Of a DNA stretch of 64,000 bases, positions 51,628 to 62,512 are shown piece after piece; position 1 is the first letter of the stretch, and each line of letters opens with the position of its first letter. A model generated the notes under the pieces. The model was not told the origin of the DNA, did not search any database, and saw only the letters and a program-made list of their open reading frames with translations. Where the stretch lies: contig CP036424.1 in the NCBI GenBank assembly GCA_007745835.1, positions 1,759,001 to 1,823,000 of the forward strand. The letters are read 5' to 3'. The position numbers were made by a program, and so were the translations under genes. This stretch comes from Planctomycetes bacterium MalM25. GTDB taxonomy: Bacteria; Planctomycetota; Planctomycetia; Pirellulales; Lacipirellulaceae.

Positions 51628-53700
51628 CTAGCGCCAGAAGAGCCAATCGTTCAGAGTCCGCTTGGGCTCCGGCGTCTTCTCAGGCTCGCCTTCGGTGGCG
51701 GGGGCCAGCTCCCCTTTAGCGCGAAACCGAGATCCGTACCCGACGCGGAGCGGCTGTTCCGGCTTCTCGATCCCAGCGGTCGAACCCGACCTCGCCGCCA
51801 CCTGCATGACCGGCCGCTCCTCATTCGGGTCGGGCAGGCGCCGTGCGGTGTGCTTCGCGAGTTTGGGGTAGTTGAGCCCCGCCGACTTCGGCTCCTGTGA
51901 GGCCTGAGGCGCCGGGAGCTCCGCCGGGATCGGCGTGATCTCTCGCGGGCCCTGGCTTTCCCCGGGCGAGGGGAGAACGCGGTGCTCCTGGGCCGGTTGT
52001 GGCGAGCTCAGCTCGCCCGGCAGGATCGTCGTGTCGATGATCCCCCGAGACTCGCAAGCGCACGGCCCCGGCGAGCCACAGCCGGGACAGCCTTCGGCGG
52101 CGGGGATGTAGTCGAGACGGCATCCGACCGTGTCCGCCGCCAGACGCTCGCGTTGCCCCATCGGGTCGCTGTAGCCGACCACTTCGGGCGTGATAAAGAC
52201 CACCAGCTCGCTCTCGGTGATCTGGGTATCACGCGAACGGAATAGGTGGCCGACGAAGCGAATGTCTTTCAGCAGGGGCACGCCGTCGAAGTCGCCCACG
52301 TCCGAACGCTGGCGCAGGCCCGCGATCATCAGCGTCTGGCCGTTCTGCACCCGCACCCGCGTTGTCGCCCGACGGGTCTCGACGATCGGTTGGTTGTCGC
52401 CCGGCGTGAAGCCGGCCAGGCGGCTGAACTCGGGGACGACCGTCATGTCGATCGAGCCGTCGCGCGAGATCTTGGGGACCACGTCGAGCTTGATGCCGAC
52501 CTCCTTGAAGGCGGTCGTGCCGATGTTCCCCCCGCCGGTGGTCTGCGTGAGCTGCTGGAAAGGGATCTCCGAGACGCTCTCGATGGCGGCCGACTCGTTG
52601 TCCATGACCGTCACGTTCGGGTCGGCGAGCAGCCTCGAGTCCTCGGCTTGCTGCAGCGCGAGGATGATCGCCTGGATGTTGAAGTCGTTGTGCATGCTGA
52701 AGAAGGTGAACGACCCGCCGGAGGCGCCCGCCTCGAAGGGCGCCTTGGTGACGCTGTTCACCAGGGCGCCGTTGCCCGACGAGGGCGTGCCGTCCGCGTT
52801 CACGACGCCGCTGGACAGGGCGTCCCAGTTGATGCCGATCTGCTCCAGGTCGCTCAGGCTGATGTCGTAAATCAACGACTTGATGTTCACCTGAGGGCGC
52901 GGCCGGTCGAGCCGGGAGAGGACCGCCTCGACCATGCGGACGTGCTCGGGGTAGTCGACCACGAGGAGCCGGTCGTCGTTCTCGACCGAGGCGATGCGGC
53001 CGTCGGCGCTGAGGACCACGTCGATCGCCGTCGCGGCTTGCAGGGCCGGGACGAAATGTGTGCGGAAGTAAGCGACCTCGAGCTGTCTCGGGCCGACGCC
53101 GGTCGGCCCCGCCGACGCGAGCCGGCGCGTCGCCCTGTCGATCTGCGCGACGAGCTCACGGATCTTCTCGACGCGGTCCGGGAAGTCGACCACCAGCAAC
53201 GCCCTCGCCGACGGCAGAGCGCGCACCTGCCCCTGCGGCGTGCTCATCAGGCGGGCCGCTTCCATGACCTCGTCGACCTTGCTGGCTCCGACGGGTATCG
53301 TCTCGGTGGTGAAGAAGGGGTTGATCTGCCCGAGCTGCTCCATCGGGCTGACCACCAGGCTGCCGCCAACGGGGCGGTAGCCGTAGCCGTTCGACAGGAG
53401 GATCGAGTCGAGGATCTCGCGGAGCGGGGCGTCCTTGAAGACGCCGTTCACCGAGCCGCTGACGTCGCCGGCGACGATGTTGATGCCCCACAGCTCGCTG
53501 ATGGTGAACAGCGCACTCTCGAGAGTCGCTTCACGCAGCGTCAGGTCGCCGTGACGCTCGAGCGTCTTGAGGATGCGCACGGCCCCGGCGGGTCTCTCGC
53601 CCGTGGCCTGCGCCCTAGAGTCCGAAACCCCAAACGCTAGCGCCAGGAATCCTAGCGCGGCGATAGCGGCTCGCGTCCGGTTCGATTGCCGTGTTCCCAT
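51628..53700 (-). CDS. Secretin (GspD/PilQ-type outer-membrane channel)
   Basis: 690 residues. Signal peptide ends near SRAQA (residue 31). N-terminal STN-like domain (LTLREATLESALFTISELWG), N-domains with ETIPVGASKVDEVMEAARLM, and the secretin core VGIKLDVVPKISRDGSIDMTV, VRVQNGQTLMIAGLRQRS, VPLLKDIRFVGHLFRSRDTQI, ESELVVFITPEVV. A C-terminal tail of ~170 residues is rich in Cys (GCPGCGSPGPCACES) and Pro, not usual in secretins. Forms the outer-membrane pore. Start ATG 53700 with AAGGA 10 bases upstream. Confidence 0.94.
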   Translation of the reverse strand: MGTRQSNRTRAAIAALGFLALAFGVSDSRAQATGERPAGAVRILKTLERHGDLTLREATLESALFTISELWGINIVAGDVSGSVNGVFKDAPLREILDSILLSNGYGYRPVGGSLVVSPMEQLGQINPFFTTETIPVGASKVDEVMEAARLMSTPQGQVRALPSARALLVVDFPDRVEKIRELVAQIDRATRRLASAGPTGVGPRQLEVAYFRTHFVPALQAATAIDVVLSADGRIASVENDDRLLVVDYPEHVRMVEAVLSRLDRPRPQVNIKSLIYDISLSDLEQIGINWDALSSGVVNADGTPSSGNGALVNSVTKAPFEAGASGGSFTFFSMHNDFNIQAIILALQQAEDSRLLADPNVTVMDNESAAIESVSEIPFQQLTQTTGGGNIGTTAFKEVGIKLDVVPKISRDGSIDMTVVPEFSRLAGFTPGDNQPIVETRRATTRVRVQNGQTLMIAGLRQRSDVGDFDGVPLLKDIRFVGHLFRSRDTQITESELVVFITPEVVGYSDPMGQRERLAADTVGCRLDYIPAAEGCPGCGSPGPCACESRGIIDTTILPGELSSPQPAQEHRVLPSPGESQGPREITPIPAELPAPQASQEPKSAGLNYPKLAKHTARRLPDPNEERPVMQVAARSGSTAGIEKPEQPLRVGYGSRFRAKGELAPATEGEPEKTPEPKRTLNDWLFWR

Positions 53701-53737
53701 GTGGTCATCCTTGACCGGGATTGTGCCCCGCAAGCCT

Positions 53738-54364
53738 TCAAGCGACGCCCTGGCTACTCGACAGAGCGAAGAACCAAAGCGTGAGGTCGAGTTGCAGTTC
53801 GTTGGTTTTACGCCCGACAGGCTTCAAGTCGAGCGTTCGGGTGTGTTTGAGCCGTGTGTCTTCGTCGATCGTTCTGAGCAGCGCCATGACCTCGTCGCTC
53901 GATCCGGTCACGCTGAAGGCGACCGGTCGCGTCCGCAGGCGGAACGGGGTCTTGGCGTTGCTCTTCGCTGGAGTCGGGGTGCTGAGCGGGTGGTCGTCGT
54001 CGGTCCAGGAACGCTCGTTCGGATTGGAGAGCTCGATCCGCCGCACCCGGCATCCGGCCTGGCGTGCCGCATCAACAAGCCAGGTTCGGAGCTCAGCGAC
54101 TTCGTCGTCGTCGATCTCTCGATCGCGCAACCCGGCGAGTTCGGAGGCCTTTTCAGCGATCCGCTGCTCGTAGAGAGGCAGACGCTTGGCGGTCTCGTTG
54201 GCTTGCGCGAGTTGTTCCAGAAGTTCGGCTCGTTCCGATCGTTCCGCAATCAGATGATCGACCTGAGGAAGCACAATCGCGAGGGCGAGCACGAACGTGA
54301 CGCCTGTAACGATTAGCCAACGCCGGGGGTTCTGGGAGAGTTTTTCCGCGAGGTTCTCAATCAT
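53738..54364 (-). CDS. PilO-like inner-membrane assembly protein
   Basis: 208 residues. One membrane helix (RWLIVTGVTFVLALAIVLPQV), coiled coil (ERAELLEQLAQANETAKRL), then a small ferredoxin-like domain ending in LQLDLTLWFFAL. This is the PilO/GspM pattern of the inner-membrane platform. It starts within a 4-base overlap of the GspL-like gene (54361-54364). Confidence 0.85.
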   Translation of the reverse strand: MIENLAEKLSQNPRRWLIVTGVTFVLALAIVLPQVDHLIAERSERAELLEQLAQANETAKRLPLYEQRIAEKASELAGLRDREIDDDEVAELRTWLVDAARQAGCRVRRIELSNPNERSWTDDDHPLSTPTPAKSNAKTPFRLRTRPVAFSVTGSSDEVMALLRTIDEDTRLKHTRTLDLKPVGRKTNELQLDLTLWFFALSSSQGVA

Positions 54365-55908
54365 GGCTTCGACGCCTTGGTTGCTGGCGTGGCTAGCGGT
54401 AGTTGCAGTTCGACTTCAAAGCTCGTGGCCGGGCCCTGGGGGGTTTGGGCGACGCCGGTGCCCCGGAGCGCGACCTCGCCCCAGCTGGGCGCCTCCTGCA
54501 GATGACGGACGAAGTCGTACACACCACTCTCTGTGTAACTGTTCCCTTCCAGTGAGACCTTGCCCTCGAATTCGCGCAGACTCCGGAGCCATACGTCGCC
54601 GGGCAGGCAGCCGCCGAGGCGTTCGACGAGCGGTGTCAGGTTCTGCTCGGGGGTGCTTTGGACCAGTCGGGTGAGGTTGTCGATCTCCGAGCCGGCCTTG
54701 GCGATTTCGTGGGACAGACGCTCGCCGCGCAGCTGCGCGGGTCGGGCCTTCTCGAACTTGCTTCGCAGGGCGGCAATCTCCGCTTGCTGCTCCAGGTTCA
54801 CCAGCCACAGGGTGGCGGCCGCGAGCAAGGTGGCGGCGATCGGCGCCAGGGCGCGCATCAGGAACGGGCGGATCGGTGGCTTCGCCCGGGCGTGGATCTC
54901 GTCCATCAGGTTGGGGCACGCGCCCTGCTCCGTGAGTCGGGCGCGGAACGCCAAGCCGAGGGCGGCGCCCATCTCGGCGGTGATGGACGAGCCGTCGGGC
55001 AAGCGCCAGTACTCTGAGAGTCGATCCAGTGGCATCACCTCGGTGGCCAGCCCGGTCTTGGTTTCCGAGTTGGTCGCGGCCACTTCTGCCGGTTTGCCAA
55101 CGAGCCACATCCGCTCGAAGGGGACGCTCCACATGTTGTACAGCTTGCCGCAGTATCGCTTCAGGCGATCGAGGTGATCATCGACCACCTCGCCGAGACG
55201 CTCGACGGTGGCGTCACTCGCGGGGCGGTACTCGACGAGCAGCTCCCCCAGCCGGCTCACGCCGATCTCGAAGTGCTCCTCGTCGAGCTGCGCCAGGATG
55301 ACCGGTGCGTCGTTGTCGGGCTCGAGCCTCCCCTGCAGTCGGCTCAGGGCGACCAGGGCGGACTCGACCACATCGACCACCATGCCGGCCGATTCGACGG
55401 CGTCGATCAGCCGCTGTAGGGTGCGCTCGTTGGTGACGGTGACCAGGGCGTGTTCGTGGCGGGCATCGATGCTCTTGCGTCCGACCGCGGTCGTCTTCGG
55501 CCCCGGGCCCAAGGAGAGGTACAGCTGGCTCCGCTCTTTCAGTTCAGCGATCTCGCTCTCGACCTTCGCGGTCGCGCCCGACGTGGCGCGGTTGACACAC
55601 AGCGTACTGCTGATCGCCAGCGACACGCTGCACCCCGCCAAGCGTTCTTCGGTGACGAGGCGGCGCAAGCCCTCGGCGAGCTCCGCCTGGCCGGCGTCGC
55701 ACATCAGGTCGGGCGCTTCGTTCCGCCAGCGGACCGTGCGGGTGCGGAGTTCGGGCAACTCTTCTGAGTCGCTCTCGATCACGATCGCGACTCGCAGCAC
55801 CGAGTGGCAGAGCTCGAGATAGATGCTCCGCGCGTCGGCGTGCCGACGGCGCGCCGCCGAGTTGCGGCGGTCGGACGACTGTCGGCGATCGGGGGAGGAT
55901 TGGTTCAT
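54361..55908 (-). CDS. GspL-like protein, fused PilM-PilN type
   Basis: 515 residues. A basic start (SSDRRNSAARRRHADARSIY) precedes an actin-like domain of ~340 residues (VEYRPASDATVERLGEVVDDHL, ITAEMGAALGLAFRARL), like PilM. Then a membrane helix (LAPIAATLLAAATLWLV), coiled coil (IAALRSKFEKARPAQLRGE) and a C-terminal PilN-like domain (GGCLPGDVWLRSLREFEGKVSLEG). In many systems these are two genes; here one. It joins the cytoplasmic ATPase to the inner-membrane complex. Start ATG 55908. Confidence 0.88.
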   Translation of the reverse strand: MNQSSPDRRQSSDRRNSAARRRHADARSIYLELCHSVLRVAIVIESDSEELPELRTRTVRWRNEAPDLMCDAGQAELAEGLRRLVTEERLAGCSVSLAISSTLCVNRATSGATAKVESEIAELKERSQLYLSLGPGPKTTAVGRKSIDARHEHALVTVTNERTLQRLIDAVESAGMVVDVVESALVALSRLQGRLEPDNDAPVILAQLDEEHFEIGVSRLGELLVEYRPASDATVERLGEVVDDHLDRLKRYCGKLYNMWSVPFERMWLVGKPAEVAATNSETKTGLATEVMPLDRLSEYWRLPDGSSITAEMGAALGLAFRARLTEQGACPNLMDEIHARAKPPIRPFLMRALAPIAATLLAAATLWLVNLEQQAEIAALRSKFEKARPAQLRGERLSHEIAKAGSEIDNLTRLVQSTPEQNLTPLVERLGGCLPGDVWLRSLREFEGKVSLEGNSYTESGVYDFVRHLQEAPSWGEVALRGTGVAQTPQGPATSFEVELQLPLATPATKASKP

Positions 55909-55943
55909 GGTTCGGTGCGGTTGGGGACGGTTCGCGTCTCGCT

Positions 55944-56315
55944 CTACAGCTCGATGGTCGCCTGGACGGTGCGCATGCCCTGGCCGGAGTAGCCGATCGA
56001 GGTGACCAGCACCCCGCCCGACCCGTCGTCGACACCGGTAGCCGAGTAGCCGCTCGCCGCGGGGGAGGGGGGGGCTGTCCCCTCGCTGACGGCGCCGCGC
56101 CAGCCCGGATCGTTCATGAGCTCGACACAAGCGTGGTGCACGCCGGCGTTCGCCCAGTAGAGGGCCTGCTCGTACTCGATCGCGTTGCGCGTGGCGGCGA
56201 GCTGCAGTGTCTCGGTCTGCATGACGTTCAGCACCAGCGCGCTGACCATGAAGACCAGGAACAGGGACATCAGCAACGCCGCACCGCGGCGTGGTTGGTG
56301 TGTGCGTTTCACCAT
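55944..56315 (-). CDS. PilX/GspK-like minor pilus assembly protein
   Basis: 123 residues. MVKRTHQPRRGAALLMSLFLVFMVSALVLNVMQTETLQLAATRNAIEYEQALYWANAG is the pattern of PilX-type N-termini: Gly-Ala-Ala-Leu-Leu followed by a membrane helix. The prepilin-like cleavage Gly is at residue 11. Shorter than GspK. The start overlaps the stop of the GspJ-like gene by seven bases. Confidence 0.8.
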   Translation of the reverse strand: MVKRTHQPRRGAALLMSLFLVFMVSALVLNVMQTETLQLAATRNAIEYEQALYWANAGVHHACVELMNDPGWRGAVSEGTAPPSPAASGYSATGVDDGSGGVLVTSIGYSGQGMRTVQATIEL

Positions 56316-56827
56316 GCCCTCACCCAGGTGAACGAGGAGACCGTGCGGGCGCCGCCGTCCGGCAGCGAGGCGGTGACGGTCGTCCGGAAGGTCTGCACGT
56401 CGCTCGGCTCGGTGGTCGCGGTCACGCCGTCGGCCTCGTAGCCTTCCAGCGTCAGCGAGACCACGCCGTCCGCGAGCGGCTGGGGAGAGGTGGCGTCGAC
56501 CTGCAGAGTGACCTGAGTCCCCGAATGGTCCCAGCGGAGCGTGGAACCGTCGGCCCTTTCGATCGCGAGGTGGCCGCTCGAATCGGCCGCCGACGAGATG
56601 CTCCTGACCGCCACCGCCTGCCGGGCGTGCTGGCGCAGGTGCCGCAGAACGGCGGCCGCCGACTCGGCGGCGTCGAGGTCCGACTCGTGCGCCTGCCAAG
56701 CGGCGTAGCTCGAGCGCAGCACCACGAACGACGACGCCATAAGTGTCGCCGAAAGCGAGACCGCGGTTATCACCTCCAGCAAGGTGACGCCGGCGCGGCG
56801 TTCGCGTTGTGGGGCGGGACGAGTCAT
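56309..56827 (-). CDS. GspJ-like prepilin-type protein
   Basis: 172 residues. RRAGVTLLEVITAVSLSATLMASSFVVLRSSYAAW is a type IV prepilin N-terminus with G at -1 and E at +5. Length and composition fit GspJ-type minor pseudopilins. Start at ATG 56827; a 4-base overlap joins it to the upstream GspI-like gene. The longer frame to 56881 overlaps that gene. Confidence 0.85.
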   Translation of the reverse strand: MTRPAPQRERRAGVTLLEVITAVSLSATLMASSFVVLRSSYAAWQAHESDLDAAESAAAVLRHLRQHARQAVAVRSISSAADSSGHLAIERADGSTLRWDHSGTQVTLQVDATSPQPLADGVVSLTLEGYEADGVTATTEPSDVQTFRTTVTASLPDGGARTVSSFTWVRAW

Positions 56828-57282
56828 GTTCCGAGGGCTTCGTAGGTGGCGAACTTGCCGATCTTGGTCCGGCACGAGCAACTCCTCTCGCCGGGCGTGA
56901 GAGTGTCGTCGCCGTTGGCGTCGTCGTAGACCGTGGTGCGGACATCCATCAGCTGATCGGTCAGCCCGCCCGCGAGCGGGTCGTCCGAGCAGGCGGTCTC
57001 GAAGCGGATGTTGGGGTGCCCGTCCGCGGCGAAGTCGCCGGTGTAAGTAGCGGAGGCCCAGGTCATCGCGATCGAGGCGAGTCGCTGCTCGATCTGCGAG
57101 GCGGCGTACAGCGACAGCAGCTGTTGCCGGTCGGTCTCCGAGCTCTTTTGCACGCCCAACCGCACTAGCTGCATCGCCGGCACGAGGGTGGCGGCCATCA
57201 GCGCGGTGGCGGCGACAACCTCGACGAGCGAGTACGCGCGACGCGGGGGCCGGGGCCGGCGGATTGTCGGATCGCTAGGCAT
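56824..57282 (-). CDS. GspI-like prepilin-type protein
   Basis: 152 residues. The N-terminus PRRAYSLVEVVAATALMAATLVPAMQLV carries an A at the -1 position instead of Gly, followed by YSLVE. The C-terminal part has SCSCRTKIGKFATYEALG. A minor pseudopilin by location and N-terminus; GspI is the closest guess. Start ATG 57282. Confidence 0.8.
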   Translation of the reverse strand: MPSDPTIRRPRPPRRAYSLVEVVAATALMAATLVPAMQLVRLGVQKSSETDRQQLLSLYAASQIEQRLASIAMTWASATYTGDFAADGHPNIRFETACSDDPLAGGLTDQLMDVRTTVYDDANGDDTLTPGERSCSCRTKIGKFATYEALGT

Positions 57283-57315: not shown

Positions 57316-57810
57316 TCACTTGGCTTTCACGGTTTCGATGTGCCCGGTGAGGGCGTTCACCGTCAGGTCCCAGTTCCAATCGCCGTCGCCGATCCCGATT
57401 TTGCCGCCGGCGACCGGCGTGTTGAGGGCCCCGCTGTAGTTGAACTCCCAGCGGTCCGATGAGCCGGTGAGGGTCACACCGTTCGGGACGGCGATCTCGG
57501 CTTCGGTGACTTGGTCGCCCCCCGAGGTAACCCGCACCACGCGTAGAGCGGTGACAACGCCACTGTCGCGCACCAGCACGACCGCCGCGGGCGAGCCCTC
57601 GCCGATCGCCTGGCGTTGGGCCAAGTGGAGCGATTGGGCGACGCTGCGGGCGAAACCTTGGGCCGAAGCGGTCGTCAGAGCGTAGTCCCCCCATCGGACG
57701 ACGGCGGCAGCCGACAGCACGCCGGCGATCGCCACCACCGCGGTCAGCTCCAGCAAAGAGAACGCACGCCGCTCGTAACGAGGGCGTGCGTCGGTCGATC
57801 TGTGGTTCAT
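57316..57810 (-). CDS. GspH-like prepilin-type protein
   Basis: 164 residues. YERRAFSLLELTAVVAIAGVLSAAAVVRWGDYALTTASAQGFARS is a prepilin N-terminus with A before FSLLE and a following helix, as in GspH (minor pseudopilin). The C-terminal domain is beta-rich (WEFNYSGALNTPVAGGKIGIG). Start ATG 57810; the longer frame to 57834 overlaps the GspG-like stop. Confidence 0.82.
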   Translation of the reverse strand: MNHRSTDARPRYERRAFSLLELTAVVAIAGVLSAAAVVRWGDYALTTASAQGFARSVAQSLHLAQRQAIGEGSPAAVVLVRDSGVVTALRVVRVTSGGDQVTEAEIAVPNGVTLTGSSDRWEFNYSGALNTPVAGGKIGIGDGDWNWDLTVNALTGHIETVKAK

Positions 57811-57833
57811 AGCGGGGGACTGCCCGAGATGCA

Positions 57834-58154
57834 TCAGTCGATGCGGTGCGACGTGGCGTTCATTGCGTACGACGAGCTATCGATCGGGTTGGTCGGGATA
57901 CCGTCCGGGAAGTAATCGACGGTGTCCAGCTCCTTCAGGTTTGCCGAAGGCCACGAGCCCTGCTCGATGTAGTAGCGCTCGATCGCCGAGTTGATGGTCG
58001 CCCGATTATGGGCGTGGACCTTCGCTTTGGCGGTGTCGCTCGACGTCGTGACCCGCGGGACGATGATCGCCGCGATGATGCCGAGGATCGTGACAACGGC
58101 CAGGAGTTCCATCAACGAGAACGCCTGACGACGGGGGCGGCGTGTGCGATTCAT
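57834..58154 (-). CDS. GspG-like major pseudopilin
   Basis: 106 residues. RRQAFSLMELLAVVTILGIIAAIIVPRV is a prepilin N-terminus with A before FSLME. The helical part then reads HNRATINSAIERYYIEQGSWP, followed by a short GspG-like C-terminus with IPTNPIDSSSYAMN. Shorter than typical GspG (~140). A second, similar protein lies just upstream (58303-58638). Start ATG 58154. Confidence 0.85.
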   Translation of the reverse strand: MNRTRRPRRQAFSLMELLAVVTILGIIAAIIVPRVTTSSDTAKAKVHAHNRATINSAIERYYIEQGSWPSANLKELDTVDYFPDGIPTNPIDSSSYAMNATSHRID

Positions 58155-58302: not shown

Positions 58303-58638
58303 TTAGTGATTGTGGCCTACCACACGGCCGTCTGCATCGATTGTGTAGGTCGCGCCATCGACCGGACAGCTGGGCACCCCCTGGGGGAAGTAGCTCGGGT
58401 CGATGCCGATGTCCGACAGGCTGTTCGTCGGGAACGACCCGGTCGCCCGCATCCAGAGAGCCGACTGCAGCTCGATCTCCGTGCGGATCACGTGGCAGGC
58501 GGCGCGGTTCCCTTTCGTCCGCGTCGACTCGGTGCGTGGCAACGCCATCGCGGCGAGCACGCCGAGGATCGTGACCGCCGTCATCAGCTCGAGGAGCGAG
58601 TTGCCGCGCCGCGTGGCGCGATTCCTTGGAAGCATCAT
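58303..58638 (-). CDS. Second GspG-like pseudopilin
   Basis: 111 residues. RRGNSLLELMTAVTILGVLAAMALPRTESTR is a prepilin N-terminus with NSLLE, and the C-terminus (SYFPQGVPSCPVDGATYTIDADGRVVGHN) parallels that of the next gene, whose KELDTVDYFPDGIPTNPID has the same plan with a Cys extra. Start at ATG 58638; the frame is open far upstream, in the GspF gene, and is rejected there. Only 5 bases separate it from the GspF stop. Confidence 0.82.
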   Translation of the reverse strand: MMLPRNRATRRGNSLLELMTAVTILGVLAAMALPRTESTRTKGNRAACHVIRTEIELQSALWMRATGSFPTNSLSDIGIDPSYFPQGVPSCPVDGATYTIDADGRVVGHNH

Positions 58639-58643
58639 GGCGA

Positions 58644-59804
58644 TTATCCCACCGTGTTGATCATGTCGAACATCGGCAGGTAGATCGCTAGCAGAATGAC
58701 CGCGACGGCGCACGCCATCGAGATGGTGAGAACCGGTTCGATGACTCCGATCGCCAGGTCCGTCTTCCGCTCGATCTCCTCCTCCAGCAGCTCGCAGATC
58801 TGCTGGGTCGACTTGGACAGCCGCCCCGTCTGCTCGCCAACGATCACCAGCTGGCTGACCATCGGTGGGAAGAGGTCGTCGTGGCGTTCCACTTCGCGGC
58901 TGAACCGTTCGCCTTGTTGCACGGCCTGGTGCAATGAGCCGACCGCGAGTTTCATCGCGCGGTTGCCAACCGAATCGGCCGCCTCTTCGAGCGACTCGGC
59001 GAGGGTGAACCCCGATTCCATCAGGCTGCCCAGCACCTCCATGAGTTGCAGCAGCGAGATGTCGCGGAGCCAGGGGCCCACCAGGGGGACCTTCAGCAAG
59101 TTCGTGTCCATCCGCTCGGCGATCCGTTCGTTCTGGCGGAGCTGGCGCAGCAGGAGGGGCAGGCCCACGGCAACCAGCGCTGCCGCCCACCAGTACCCCT
59201 GGGCGAGGGCGCCGACGTCGATCATCACCTGGGTGATGCCCGGAAGCGGCACGTTCGCCGAGGCGTAGGTCTCCTCGAATACCGGGACGACGTAGCAGAG
59301 CAGGAAGCCGACCACCGCGGCGCCGACCGAGGCCAGCACGACCGGGTAAGCGAGCTTCTTGATCACGTTCTCTTGGAGCTTGCCCGCTTTCTCGCGCTGC
59401 TCGGCGACGTGGAGGAGGGTCTCCGGCAGGGCGCCGGCGCGCTCGCCGACGTGGATCTGGCTGACGGTCACTTTGTCGAAGGCGCCATCGAGCTGACCGA
59501 GTGCCGAGCTGAACAAGTCGCCGCTCTCGACCCGTCGCCGCAGGCCCTGAAGGGTTTGCCGGCAATTCTCTAGAGCCTTCTCTTCCGCGAGGGCGCCGAT
59601 CGCCTTTGGCAGCGAAACCCCGTTGCTGGTGAGCGTGGCGAGGTTGCGCAGGATGAGCGTCGTTTCTTTCTTCGTCATCCGCCGACGCGACTTGTCGCCG
59701 AAGGCCAACCAGCCGGCGGCCGGTTGGTTCTTCTTGGCGCTCTGGCGGACCGCCGCCGAGGCGGAGGCGAGCGGGGCGAGTTTCTTCTTGGTGGCGGCGC
59801 GCAC
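58644..59804 (-). CDS. gspF: GspF/PilC-like inner-membrane platform protein
   Basis: 386 residues from GTG. MTKKETTLILRNLATLTSNGVSLPKAIGALAE, IHVGERAGALPETLLHVAEQREKAGKLQENVIKKLAYPVV and the second half MVSQLVIVGEQTGRLSKSTQQICELLEEEIERKTDL show the two T2SSF repeats. About three membrane helices. The N-terminus carries ~45 extra Lys/Ala-rich residues. Interacts with the ATPase. Confidence 0.94.
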   Translation of the reverse strand: MRAATKKKLAPLASASAAVRQSAKKNQPAAGWLAFGDKSRRRMTKKETTLILRNLATLTSNGVSLPKAIGALAEEKALENCRQTLQGLRRRVESGDLFSSALGQLDGAFDKVTVSQIHVGERAGALPETLLHVAEQREKAGKLQENVIKKLAYPVVLASVGAAVVGFLLCYVVPVFEETYASANVPLPGITQVMIDVGALAQGYWWAAALVAVGLPLLLRQLRQNERIAERMDTNLLKVPLVGPWLRDISLLQLMEVLGSLMESGFTLAESLEEAADSVGNRAMKLAVGSLHQAVQQGERFSREVERHDDLFPPMVSQLVIVGEQTGRLSKSTQQICELLEEEIERKTDLAIGVIEPVLTISMACAVAVILLAIYLPMFDMINTVG

Positions 59805-59819: not shown

Positions 59820-61508
59820 TTAGCTCGACAGCTTGTAGTAAACCTCTTCGAGCGTCGTGCGGCCCGCGTAGACCTGCTCGATCCCGGCCTGCGCCAGCTC
59901 GACAAGCCCTTGGCCGACCGCGATCTCGCGGAGCTTGGAGACCGGTTCGCCCTTCTCGACCGCGTCGGCCAGCTCGGGCGTCATGACCATGATCTCGTAG
60001 ATCGGGATCCGCCCCGAGTAGCCCGTCCCGAGGCACTTCTTGCAGCCGCGTCCGCGGAAGAAGACGGCGTCTTCAGGCGGCGTGGCGTCGCCGGCGAGCT
60101 TCCGCCAGAGCTGCTCATTGAGCTCGGCGGGCGCTTTGCACTCCGTGCAGATCGACCGCAACAGCCGCTGCGCGATCGACCCGAGCAGGGCTCCGCCGAT
60201 CTTGAAGTCGTCGATCCCCAGGTCATTGAGCCGCTGCACCGCCCCGATCGAATCGTTCGTGTGCAGGGTGCTAATCAAGAGGTGCCCGGTGAGGGCCGCC
60301 TGGACGCTGGTGCCGGCCGTCTCGTGGTCGCGGATTTCGCCGACCATGATGACGTCCGGGTCCTGGCGCATGATGTACTTCAGCGCGTTGGCGAAGCCCA
60401 TGCCGTGTTCGTTATCGCTCGCCACCTGATTGATGCCGGTCAGGCGGTACTCGACGGGGTCTTCGACCGTGACGATGTTCCGGTTCACCGCGTTCAGCTT
60501 CGACAGCACGGAGTACATCGTGGTGCTCTTTCCCGAGCCGGTCGGGCCCGTCACTACGATCATGCCGTGCGGCTTGTCGATGAGGTTCTGCACCTGCTTG
60601 AGGTCGCGTTCGCTGAACCCGAGGCTCTGCAGGTCGAAGGTCTTGCCCCCCTCGTCGAGCACACGCATCACGACCTTCTCGCCGCCGACCGTGGGGATCG
60701 TGCTGACGCGGAAGTTGACCCGCGCGCCGGCCTCGGTGATGGTGAGGCGGCCGTCTTGGGGGCGGCGGTTCTCGGTCGTGTCCATGTCCGCCATGACCTT
60801 GATCCGGGCCACGACCGCGTCTTCGGTGTGGTTGGGGATGGTCATGACCGGCTGGAGTTCGCCGTCGACGCGGTAGCGGACCCGCATCTCGGGCACGTGC
60901 GGTTCCAGGTGGATGTCGCTGCACCCGGCGTTGATGGCGCCGGTGAGGATCGAGGTCACCAGCCGCACGACGGGCGCCTGCTCTTCCTCGGCGACAACGG
61001 TCGCTTCGAGTTCCTCGTCCTCGCTGTGCTCGGCGTTGGCGAGGTCGGCCAGCTTCATATCGACGATCGTCTGGCGCGCGGTCAGGCGGTCGTCGAAGCC
61101 CCGGTCGAGCGCCGCCCGCACCGGCCCGTCGAGCGCGACGACCGGCTTCACGTGGTAGCCGGTGATCAGCTCGGTCTCGCTGATGGTGTCGATGTCGTCC
61201 GGCGCGACCATGGCGAGCTCGAGCTCGCCGCCGTGGACCTTGACGGGCACGCACGAGCGATCGCGGGCCAGGTCCTCCGGGACGAGCCGCGCCACCTGCG
61301 GGTTGACCGACTGGGGCACCAGGTCGAGGTACGGGACGTGGTACTGCTCGGAGAGCGCGTCGCCGAGTTGGTCGATCGAGATCAGGTTGCGGCGCAACAT
61401 GATCTGGCCGAGCATGCCACGCTCGTTACCCTGGGCCGCGAGCGCAGCCTCAAGCTGGTTCTGCGTGATGTAGCCACGCTGCACCAGGATGTCGCCGAGG
61501 CGGGCCAT
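59820..61508 (-). CDS. gspE: GspE/PilB-type secretion ATPase
   Basis: 562 residues. N-terminal MshEN-like domain (ARLGDILVQRGYITQNQLEAALAAQ), Walker A GPTGSGKSTTMYSVL near residue 320, Asp box DPVEYRLTGINQV, Walker B MRQDPDVIMVGEIRD and His box LLISTLHTNDSIGAVQRL. Four cysteines (CTEC and CKKC) form the zinc site. Hexameric ATPase powering pseudopilus assembly. The most secure gene of the operon. Confidence 0.97.
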   Translation of the reverse strand: MARLGDILVQRGYITQNQLEAALAAQGNERGMLGQIMLRRNLISIDQLGDALSEQYHVPYLDLVPQSVNPQVARLVPEDLARDRSCVPVKVHGGELELAMVAPDDIDTISETELITGYHVKPVVALDGPVRAALDRGFDDRLTARQTIVDMKLADLANAEHSEDEELEATVVAEEEQAPVVRLVTSILTGAINAGCSDIHLEPHVPEMRVRYRVDGELQPVMTIPNHTEDAVVARIKVMADMDTTENRRPQDGRLTITEAGARVNFRVSTIPTVGGEKVVMRVLDEGGKTFDLQSLGFSERDLKQVQNLIDKPHGMIVVTGPTGSGKSTTMYSVLSKLNAVNRNIVTVEDPVEYRLTGINQVASDNEHGMGFANALKYIMRQDPDVIMVGEIRDHETAGTSVQAALTGHLLISTLHTNDSIGAVQRLNDLGIDDFKIGGALLGSIAQRLLRSICTECKAPAELNEQLWRKLAGDATPPEDAVFFRGRGCKKCLGTGYSGRIPIYEIMVMTPELADAVEKGEPVSKLREIAVGQGLVELAQAGIEQVYAGRTTLEEVYYKLSS

Positions 61509-61542: not shown

Positions 61543-61929
61543 TCAGCCTTCGATCGGCTGCGTCAGCCGGGCGAGCTTTCTCTCGAGCATGAGCGGGTCG
61601 TAGGGCGTGACGAGGTAGTCGTCGGCGCCGGCGTTGAACGCCTTCTGCACGTCGGTCAGCTCGGCGTTGGGCGAGAGCAGCATGACCGGCACCTCGCTGG
61701 TTCGCAGGTCGTTGCTCAGCCGGTCGATCATCTCCAGCCCGTCCATGTCGGGGAGGAAATGGCCGATGAGGATCGCGTCGGGCAGCTCGGACGCGAGCCA
61801 CTCGAGCGCGTCGCCGCCCGAGGCCCGCGACACGACGGCGTGGCCGAGCAGCTCCAGGCGGAACTGTGTGATCTCGCGCAGCGTCTCGTCCTCTTCGATC
61901 AGCAGGATCGTCTTTTGAAGTTCGTTCAT
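61543..61929 (-). CDS. Receiver-like protein lacking the phospho-acceptor Asp
   Basis: 128 residues. A receiver (CheY-like) fold: TILLIEEDETLREITQFRLE, LPDAILIGHFLPDMDG, VPVMLLSPNAELTD and FNAGADDYLVTPYDP. The acidic cluster E12-E13-D14 is intact, but the position of the phospho-acceptor Asp is Gly (G56, in ILIGHFLP) and the conserved Lys near the end is Thr (T108). A pseudo-receiver by sequence. It is the first gene of the secretion operon, 34 bases before gspE, so it may regulate or bind the ATPase rather than respond to a kinase. Confidence 0.9.
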   Translation of the reverse strand: MNELQKTILLIEEDETLREITQFRLELLGHAVVSRASGGDALEWLASELPDAILIGHFLPDMDGLEMIDRLSNDLRTSEVPVMLLSPNAELTDVQKAFNAGADDYLVTPYDPLMLERKLARLTQPIEG

Positions 61930-62042: not shown

Positions 62043-62085
62043 ACAAAGCGACGCCGGCGCGCTCAGCGCCCCGGCGTCGCTTTGT
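62043..62085. terminator. Hairpin terminator between the CBS gene and the secretion operon
   Basis: Perfect 15-bp stem ACAAAGCGACGCCGG (62043-62057) with its complement (62071-62085), 13-base loop. On the minus strand it lies just after the CBS stop at 62117. It is followed by a short T-rich run only, so termination strength is uncertain. It isolates the CBS gene from the operon. Confidence 0.75.
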
Positions 62086-62116: not shown

Positions 62117-62512
62117 TCAGCAGGTGGCCACCGGCGCCGACGCTTGGTAGATGGCGTTCAGCACGTCACGGCGGGACACGAGGCCGGTCAGGCACCCGTT
62201 CTCGACCACCGGCAGGCGACGCACGCGGTGCACGATGCACAGATCGGCGACCTTGTTGACCGGGTCGCTCGCCTCGACGGTGAGCACCTCGCTGGTCATG
62301 TGATCGCACACCTTGTGGTCCGCGACGTTCTGATCGTACGCCAGCGCGAGCAGGGCGAACTCGGTCAGGATGCCGACCAAGCGGTCGCGATTATCGACCA
62401 CGGGTAACCCGCTGATGCGGCGTGCTAGCAACAGGTCGATGGCGTCACGGATCGAGGCGTCCGGCGAGATCGTGACGATCTCACGGCTCATGATATTCTT
62501 GACGGTCAGCAT
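62117..62512 (-). CDS. CBS-domain protein
   Basis: 131 residues with two CBS repeats: IMSREIVTISPDASIRDAIDLLLARRISGLPVVDNRDRLVGILTEF and MTSEVLTVEASDPVNKVADLCIVHRVRRLPVVENGCLTGLVSRRDVL. Stand-alone CBS pairs bind adenosine nucleotides and act as energy sensors. Partner unknown. Same strand as the secretion operon, with a terminator between. Confidence 0.93.
   Translation of the reverse strand: MLTVKNIMSREIVTISPDASIRDAIDLLLARRISGLPVVDNRDRLVGILTEFALLALAYDQNVADHKVCDHMTSEVLTVEASDPVNKVADLCIVHRVRRLPVVENGCLTGLVSRRDVLNAIYQASAPVATC

Follow-up and report, generated by a model that had tools for sequence, protein, structure and literature searches.

A stand-alone pseudo-receiver encoded beside a planctomycete clade of GspE/PilB-type ATPases is a candidate phosphorylation-independent partner of the motor

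In Pirellulales, and in some of the other class members, a stand-alone pseudo-receiver is encoded immediately ahead of one clade of GspE/PilB-type assembly ATPases, and we give about an even chance to the reading that it is a dedicated, constitutively folded and phosphorylation-independent partner of that ATPase. Docking of the receiver onto GspE is what we infer from sequence comparisons; adjacency of two genes in an operon is not proof of contact between their proteins. All coordinates below refer to the window, a 64,000-nucleotide stretch of the genome of Planctomycetes bacterium MalM25, which is a single contig of 4.72 Mb.

The receiver gene occupies 61543..61929 on the minus strand, running from its ATG at 61929 to the stop codon at 61543, and, based on the ORF and its translation, encodes 128 aa with PF00072 (Response_reg; 66.3 bits against a cut-off of 30.2) as the sole Pfam match in the protein. 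A structural model built with a 43-row alignment as input reached a mean pLDDT of 93.6 and showed (βα)5 order, and its top match among solved structures was RR468 in the HK853-RR468 complex (Foldseek E 7e-12; Z 23.0, rmsd 0.9 Å across 121 residues). Alignments gave the catalytic set as Glu12, Glu13, Gly56, Ser86, and Thr108, at sites where ordinary receivers carry Asp/Glu, Asp, Asp, Thr/Ser, and Lys, respectively. The sequence-only reading had proposed that Gly replaces the phospho-acceptor Asp and Thr the conserved Lys, and both assignments agree with the alignment, which places Gly56 (in LIGHFLP) at the acceptor site and Thr108 (in DYLVTPYDP) at the Lys site. That reading had also described the acidic pocket as kept; the pocket is acidic, but its pair is Glu12-Glu13 rather than Asp-Asp, and position 13 is Asp in 21/21 control receivers (PhoB-type, picked by score and not at random). 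Compared with the canonical phospho-accepting residue set, Ser86 alone fits. The protein is a pseudo-receiver (PsR) as defined in PMC12632262, that is, a receiver without key catalytic residues; according to the same source, pseudo-receivers make up ~6% of a representative bacterial set and ~80% of them carry a non-acidic residue at the second acid position, so an all-Glu pocket differs from the most common form. The name aspartate-less receiver (ALR) applies to the window protein and to those of 23/26 family genomes, and does not apply to 19/45 orthologues.

The link between the receiver gene and gspE that had been read from the window held in every genome in which this gspE was found. Within the family (43 genomes searched), the GspE protein identified 26 carriers and the receiver profile 27; the receiver lies immediately upstream on the same strand in 26/26 genomes with this gspE, and in the extra, receiver-only genome (G050) gspE is cut by a contig edge. 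The same arrangement was present in 30/30 genomes with this gspE among 297 genomes of the class, where membership of the GspE clade was set at E 1e-150 or better and the best 14 receiver candidates and best 4 GspE candidates per genome were scored. Three of these 30 receivers scored only 83–93 bits in the first receiver search, yet they adjoin gspE. In the phylum search (244 genomes), GspE matches of >480 bits occurred only in G000 (the window's own genome), G072, G127, and G391, and the receiver adjoins gspE in all four, although the G391 pair is distant and its receiver is canonical (DD/D/T/K). Likewise, gspE is downstream of the receiver in 31/31 and gspF in 29/31 named-record loci, which were chosen with a receiver α1 peptide pattern (FRLELLG[YFH]xV), and the receiver-gspE gap has a median of 59 nt over 35 loci. 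As controls, such a receiver flanks 1/11 T2SSE ATPases of the window's own genome, and some receiver occurs in the flank of 4 out of 27 more distant GspE loci (including G391), within ~160 nt in 2 of them. The broad list of receiver matches was discarded as evidence, because most matches below ~97 bits were PhoB-type regulators of the ordinary kind, with no gspE.

Several observations accompany these searches. In other planctomycete lineages, distant gspE genes are directly preceded by receivers with the canonical residues (L127 and L142, from G391 and G335); in these loci, a functional switch may accompany a motor of the same kind. The receiver-gspE pair is also present on a contig labelled Leptolyngbya, a cyanobacterium (L114; GspE 50% identity), which may be planctomycete DNA that was binned wrongly. 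A metagenome assembly of Rubripirellula (L112) has a receiver reading frame that is interrupted ~47 aa in, and an error of assembly could be the cause. In another genome (G015; L190:1501-2600), the gspE match ends at about residue 343 and is followed by an unrelated ORF that resembles an insertion element by eye, with the receiver intact upstream. The window's own genome contains 11 T2SSE-family ATPases above the Pfam cut-off in 4.7 Mb and is unusually rich in secretion/pilus motors.

In the window, the receiver stands at the head of a putative secretion operon, in agreement with the sequence-only reading. The gene for the GspE/PilB-type ATPase (59820..61508, minus strand; 562 aa; PF00437 410.8 bits, PF05157 60.1 bits) follows after a gap of 34 nt (61543 to 61508) on the same strand. 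Further along the minus strand are genes for a GspF/PilC-type platform protein (58644..59804; PF00482 168 bits), two pseudopilin-like N_methyl proteins (A, 58303..58638, PF07963 25.6 bits for 58303-58650; B, 57834..58154, PF07963 27.1 bits), and a GspH-like pseudopilin (57316..57834; PF12019 21.6 bits, cut-off 21). Two probable pseudopilins occupy the GspI position (56824..57282; no Pfam match, a prepilin-like start by eye) and the GspJ position (56309..56881; PF07963 17.2 bits, under cut-off), and both are conserved neighbours in the named loci. They are followed by an ORF with a PilN-like C-terminal part (54361..56130; PF05137 35.0 bits, residues 503-576), the true start of which probably lies inside the ORF, a PilO-like protein (53738..54364; PF04350 19.5 bits, just below the cut-off of 22), and a secretin (51628..53733; PF00263 149.5 bits). 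The set therefore holds an ATPase, which scores under the NCBIfam equivalog cut-offs of both GspE and PilB, a platform protein, several N_methyl proteins, PilN-like and weak PilO-like proteins, and a secretin. Upstream of the receiver, an inverted repeat with 21-nt arms (62043..62085) is terminator-like and was also marked, on the minus strand, by a terminator scan; it fits a separate transcription unit that begins with the receiver, and a promoter scan of the receiver upstream region found no sigma-70-like promoter. Beyond the repeat, on the same strand, is a gene for a two-CBS-domain protein (131 aa; 62117-62512), which is probably a separate unit because a CBS gene is upstream of the receiver in only 10/31 named-record loci and ~4 kb away in one of them. 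In two loci (L102 and L103), pilin-like genes are inverted upstream of the receiver and the receiver-gspE pair is still together, an arrangement that hints at the pair being the unit.

To compare the phosphorylation sites, we used 45 receivers collected purely by their position beside gspE and identified there by means of a profile made from A2. None of them has Lys at the Lys site (Thr 29, Ala 4, Ile 3, His 1, and Val, Met, Leu, and Ser 2 each), whereas the acceptor site is mixed (Gly 23, Asp 19, Glu 2, Asn 1), with Asp absent in 26/45. Gly prevails within the family (23/26, with Asp in 3/26) and is less frequent in the class sample (Gly 11/30, Asp 16, Glu 2, Asn 1). Lys was again absent when the comparison was widened to 58 distinct sequences, of which 57 had data at these sites after L112 was dropped (Asp 28, Gly 25, Asn 2, Glu 2). 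To judge from these alignment columns, the shared trait of gspE-linked receivers is the loss of Lys and not Gly, which is a trait of one lineage. The earlier view that normal phosphorylation chemistry is lost stands for the window receiver (Gly56, Thr108), and Lys is present in 0/45 of the gspE-linked receivers. The proposed check of Gly conservation next to gspE gave a divided answer, since Gly is common to 23/26 family genomes but 19/45 orthologues have Asp. The sequence-only reading had reasoned that orthologues with Asp would mark the Gly as a single mutation or sequencing error; such orthologues exist, but they have no Lys either, and an isolated mutation or error is ruled out because 23/26 family genomes share the Gly. 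In a quick GspE tree with moderate supports and a very long outgroup branch, in which one and two origins of Gly look alike, Gly is confined to family rows and unclassified neighbours and the acceptor changes at least five times tree-wide. The canonical G391 pair could not serve to polarise the change between Asp and Gly: it had no close GspE relative in 9 genomes of its class, and among 18 loci examined receiver matches were found in one only (L220).

The mixed acceptor site raises the alternative that the function of the receiver family depends on a kinase, such that Asp-keeping lineages still phospho-switch with Lys replaced and Lacipirellulaceae lost phosphorylation secondarily. The 19/45 orthologues with Asp, the retention of Ser/Thr86 in 42/45, a Glu-Asp acid pair in many of the Asp-bearing sets, and the canonical receiver beside gspE in the distant G391 pair are all in its favour. 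Nevertheless, we regard it as unlikely: Lys is absent in 45/45, several Asp members are without the acid pair (e.g., L189, L188, L182), and no kinase gene was noted among the identified operon parts in the annotated flanks. Some remnant of the ordinary switch may also persist, because about half of the orthologues keep Asp and most keep Ser/Thr86 and an aromatic residue at 105 (43/45). In the Gly set, Glu12-Glu13 is present in 25/25 and His57 in 21/25 (L112 and L114 were left out of these counts and of the control comparison), and in many Gly-bearing receivers the acceptor loop has lost one residue. This set is more regular than free drift, as would be expected if the emptied pocket of Lacipirellulaceae (Glu12-Glu13-Gly56-His57) were a ligand, metal, or pH sensor that binds a non-phosphate species and switches the protein. 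Such a sensor seems improbable, given that the residue set is limited to one family with an irregular pocket elsewhere, that common ancestry could account for the regularity, and that there is no known ligand.

In contrast to the drifting pocket, the end of helix α1 is fixed as R24-L25-x-L27-L28-G29. Because the named-record loci were picked by an α1 peptide, α1 counts were taken from the 45 gspE-derived loci, in which R24, L25, L27, L28, G29, A97, G101, P109, P112, and K118 are invariant (45/45) and E116 is present in 42/45. The fixed surface comprises the α1 end and single positions of α4, the β5-α5 loop, and α5. We compared this gspE-linked family with the 21 canonical controls, omitting the gspE-free receivers L121, L122, L130, and L133 and also L037; although its mean identity is lower (46% vs 62%), α1 is the one helix that is clearly less variable than in controls (0.82 vs 1.15 bits). 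Overall, α5 is more variable (1.56 vs 0.90 bits). Distinctive residues are R24 (Asn in controls), L27 (Lys/Arg), and L28 (mostly Glu), together with E26, E116, and K118 (Arg in controls), while P109, P112, G29, and G101 are typical of receivers in general. Because P109 and P112 occur in 21/21 and 20/21 controls, respectively, neither was counted as evidence for a special surface. Only part of the proposed face thus stands out, with α5 variable and the two prolines equally fixed in ordinary receivers.

The ungapped structural alignment places model residues 16, 17, 20, and 24 on RR468 V13, L14, I17, and N21, and R24 is aligned with N21, one of the four residues changed in the rewired HK853-RR468 interface (based on entry titles). 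On this alignment, the fixed part is the site where an ordinary receiver meets its helical partner, and from helix geometry we infer that the Leu pair at the α1 end is exposed. The coincidence of conserved α1 residues with the kinase-docking face of RR468 also fits a receiver that binds a histidine kinase through α1 as a competitor or decoy, with the gspE neighbourhood only setting its expression. We hold this to be quite improbable, because in the genomes examined the receiver goes with one ATPase clade without exception and no adjacent kinase was noted.

Selection on the two genes was compared in 16 pairs, two of which gave no dS. The receiver dN/dS was <1 in 14/14 computable pairs (0.025–0.52; rough ratios, as several dS values exceeded 1), and the receiver is under purifying selection and maintained; its free decay is ruled out. 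The gspE values in the same 14 pairs were 0.011 to 0.24, and the receiver ratio exceeded that of gspE in 12/14, showing that the receiver evolves faster. This faster rate and the lost catalytic residues speak for a remnant that the operon passively carries, but dN/dS <1 throughout, an α1 end invariant in 45/45 receivers, and no loss in 30 class and 26 family genomes make such a passenger very hard to credit.

The partner ATPase begins with a putative c-di-GMP-binding region: its residues 3-55 match the NCBIfam c-di-GMP_motif NF053729 (57.4 bits against a cut-off of 38). Motif I of this MshEN domain is intact (R3-L4-G5 in 55/55 GspE sequences, the partial L061 and L190 being left out of column counts), and motif II starts with Arg in only 7/55 and mostly with Met or Leu. 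GspE is likely to bind c-di-GMP, and because the motif II Arg is so rare, the mode of binding may differ from the known form. The GspE positions specific to the clade show no concentration in the N-domain. A cluster at 144-147, where four residues are fixed in the clade and different elsewhere, was considered as a docking site and kept as a weak lead only, because its p-value rises with window width (0.013 for the 4-residue window, 0.05 and 0.18 for wider windows, uncorrected).

The reading of the receiver as a dedicated partner of this ATPase can be put as a mechanism. Direct binding to the ATPase, as the sequence-only reading suggested, would fit both the linkage without exception and the conserved α1 surface. 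With no acceptor Asp and no Lys, the receiver would not be switched by phospho-Asp. It would dock by its α1/α5 face, by which ordinary receivers meet the histidine kinase, onto the GspE N-terminal region, either the MshEN domain or the linker after it; this is the most probable site, since small partners bind to the same region in related motors, for example PilZ on the PilB N1 domain (PMC11656802). Once docked, the receiver would load, position, or gate the motor together with c-di-GMP, in the way suggested by PilZ/FimX and TadZ/CpaE, small cytosolic partners of related motors, and the signal would be the expression level or c-di-GMP on the ATPase side rather than a kinase. A further and more tentative reading, which we rate as possible but short of an even chance, takes the pseudo-receiver as an accessory subunit that is obligate for a distinct clade of planctomycete GspE, docking by the old kinase face and acting with c-di-GMP on MshEN; the steps of its conversion would then be preserved as Lys lost throughout, Asp replaced by Gly, Asn, or Glu, and finally the deletion in the acceptor loop. 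If a role of this kind is true, the receiver would represent a new class of regulator or subunit for GspE/PilB-type motors. These loci provide a pseudo-receiver with a single constant candidate partner, a natural Asp-to-Gly series, and a short stretch of conserved surface as a target for mutation, so that the role of a receiver without phosphorylation can be reduced to a direct binding experiment.

The mechanism of bacterial pseudo-receivers has been described as largely a mystery (PMC12632262), and the closest known systems resemble the window protein in part. TadZ/CpaE of Tad pili is likewise an atypical receiver belonging to a pilus machine, and in Caulobacter CpaE dimers were fitted around the motor CpaF, with CpaE-CpaF contacts predicted by AlphaFold3 (PMC13170226). 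As described there, however, TadZ/CpaE is a receiver fused to a ParA/MinD-type ATPase in Tad systems, whereas the window encodes a lone 128-aa receiver beside a GspE/PilB-type motor. FimX of Pseudomonas and Xanthomonas has a REC domain without the acceptor Asp and binds the assembly ATPase PilB, but it is a multidomain REC-PAS-GGDEF-EAL protein whose PilB binding is ascribed to c-di-GMP binding by EAL and not to the receiver (PMC11656802), in contrast to the single-domain window protein. FrzS of Myxococcus xanthus uses a non-phosphorylated receiver as a docking domain in type IV pili (PMC1974792, PMC12632262). In these accounts, Lys is retained in FrzS and Thr is replaced by Gly, whereas the window receiver has lost Lys and kept Ser; FrzS is also longer, polar-localised, and binds SgmX via α3-β4-α4, compared with 128 aa and a fixed face on α1 here. 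TadZ and FrzS were absent among the 50 matches listed by either structure search, which excludes nothing.

Gly is a known replacement in ALRs (11% of substitutions), and the 2015 survey, in its available text, gave no Gly example with a structure (PMC4395418); relative to the ALRs, Asp loss in the gspE-linked receivers is patchy and the shared loss is that of Lys. On the motor side, MshE, PilF, and PilB with MshEN (two 24-residue motifs with a 5-residue spacer; PMC5013675) share the two-motif N-terminal domain with the partner GspE, but they differ in the motif II Arg, which is so rare in this clade, and the available text of that source mentions no receiver partner. A literature search that covered few subscription journals found neither a report of a receiver, stand-alone or otherwise, encoded with gspE nor a paper on planctomycete GspE. 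In TadZ/CpaE, FimX, and FrzS, the atypical receiver tied to a pilus motor is always one domain of a larger protein. Pilus-linked atypical receivers are therefore already known, and what we count as new, because these precedents are domains of larger proteins and the search returned no such report, is the stand-alone form encoded with gspE.
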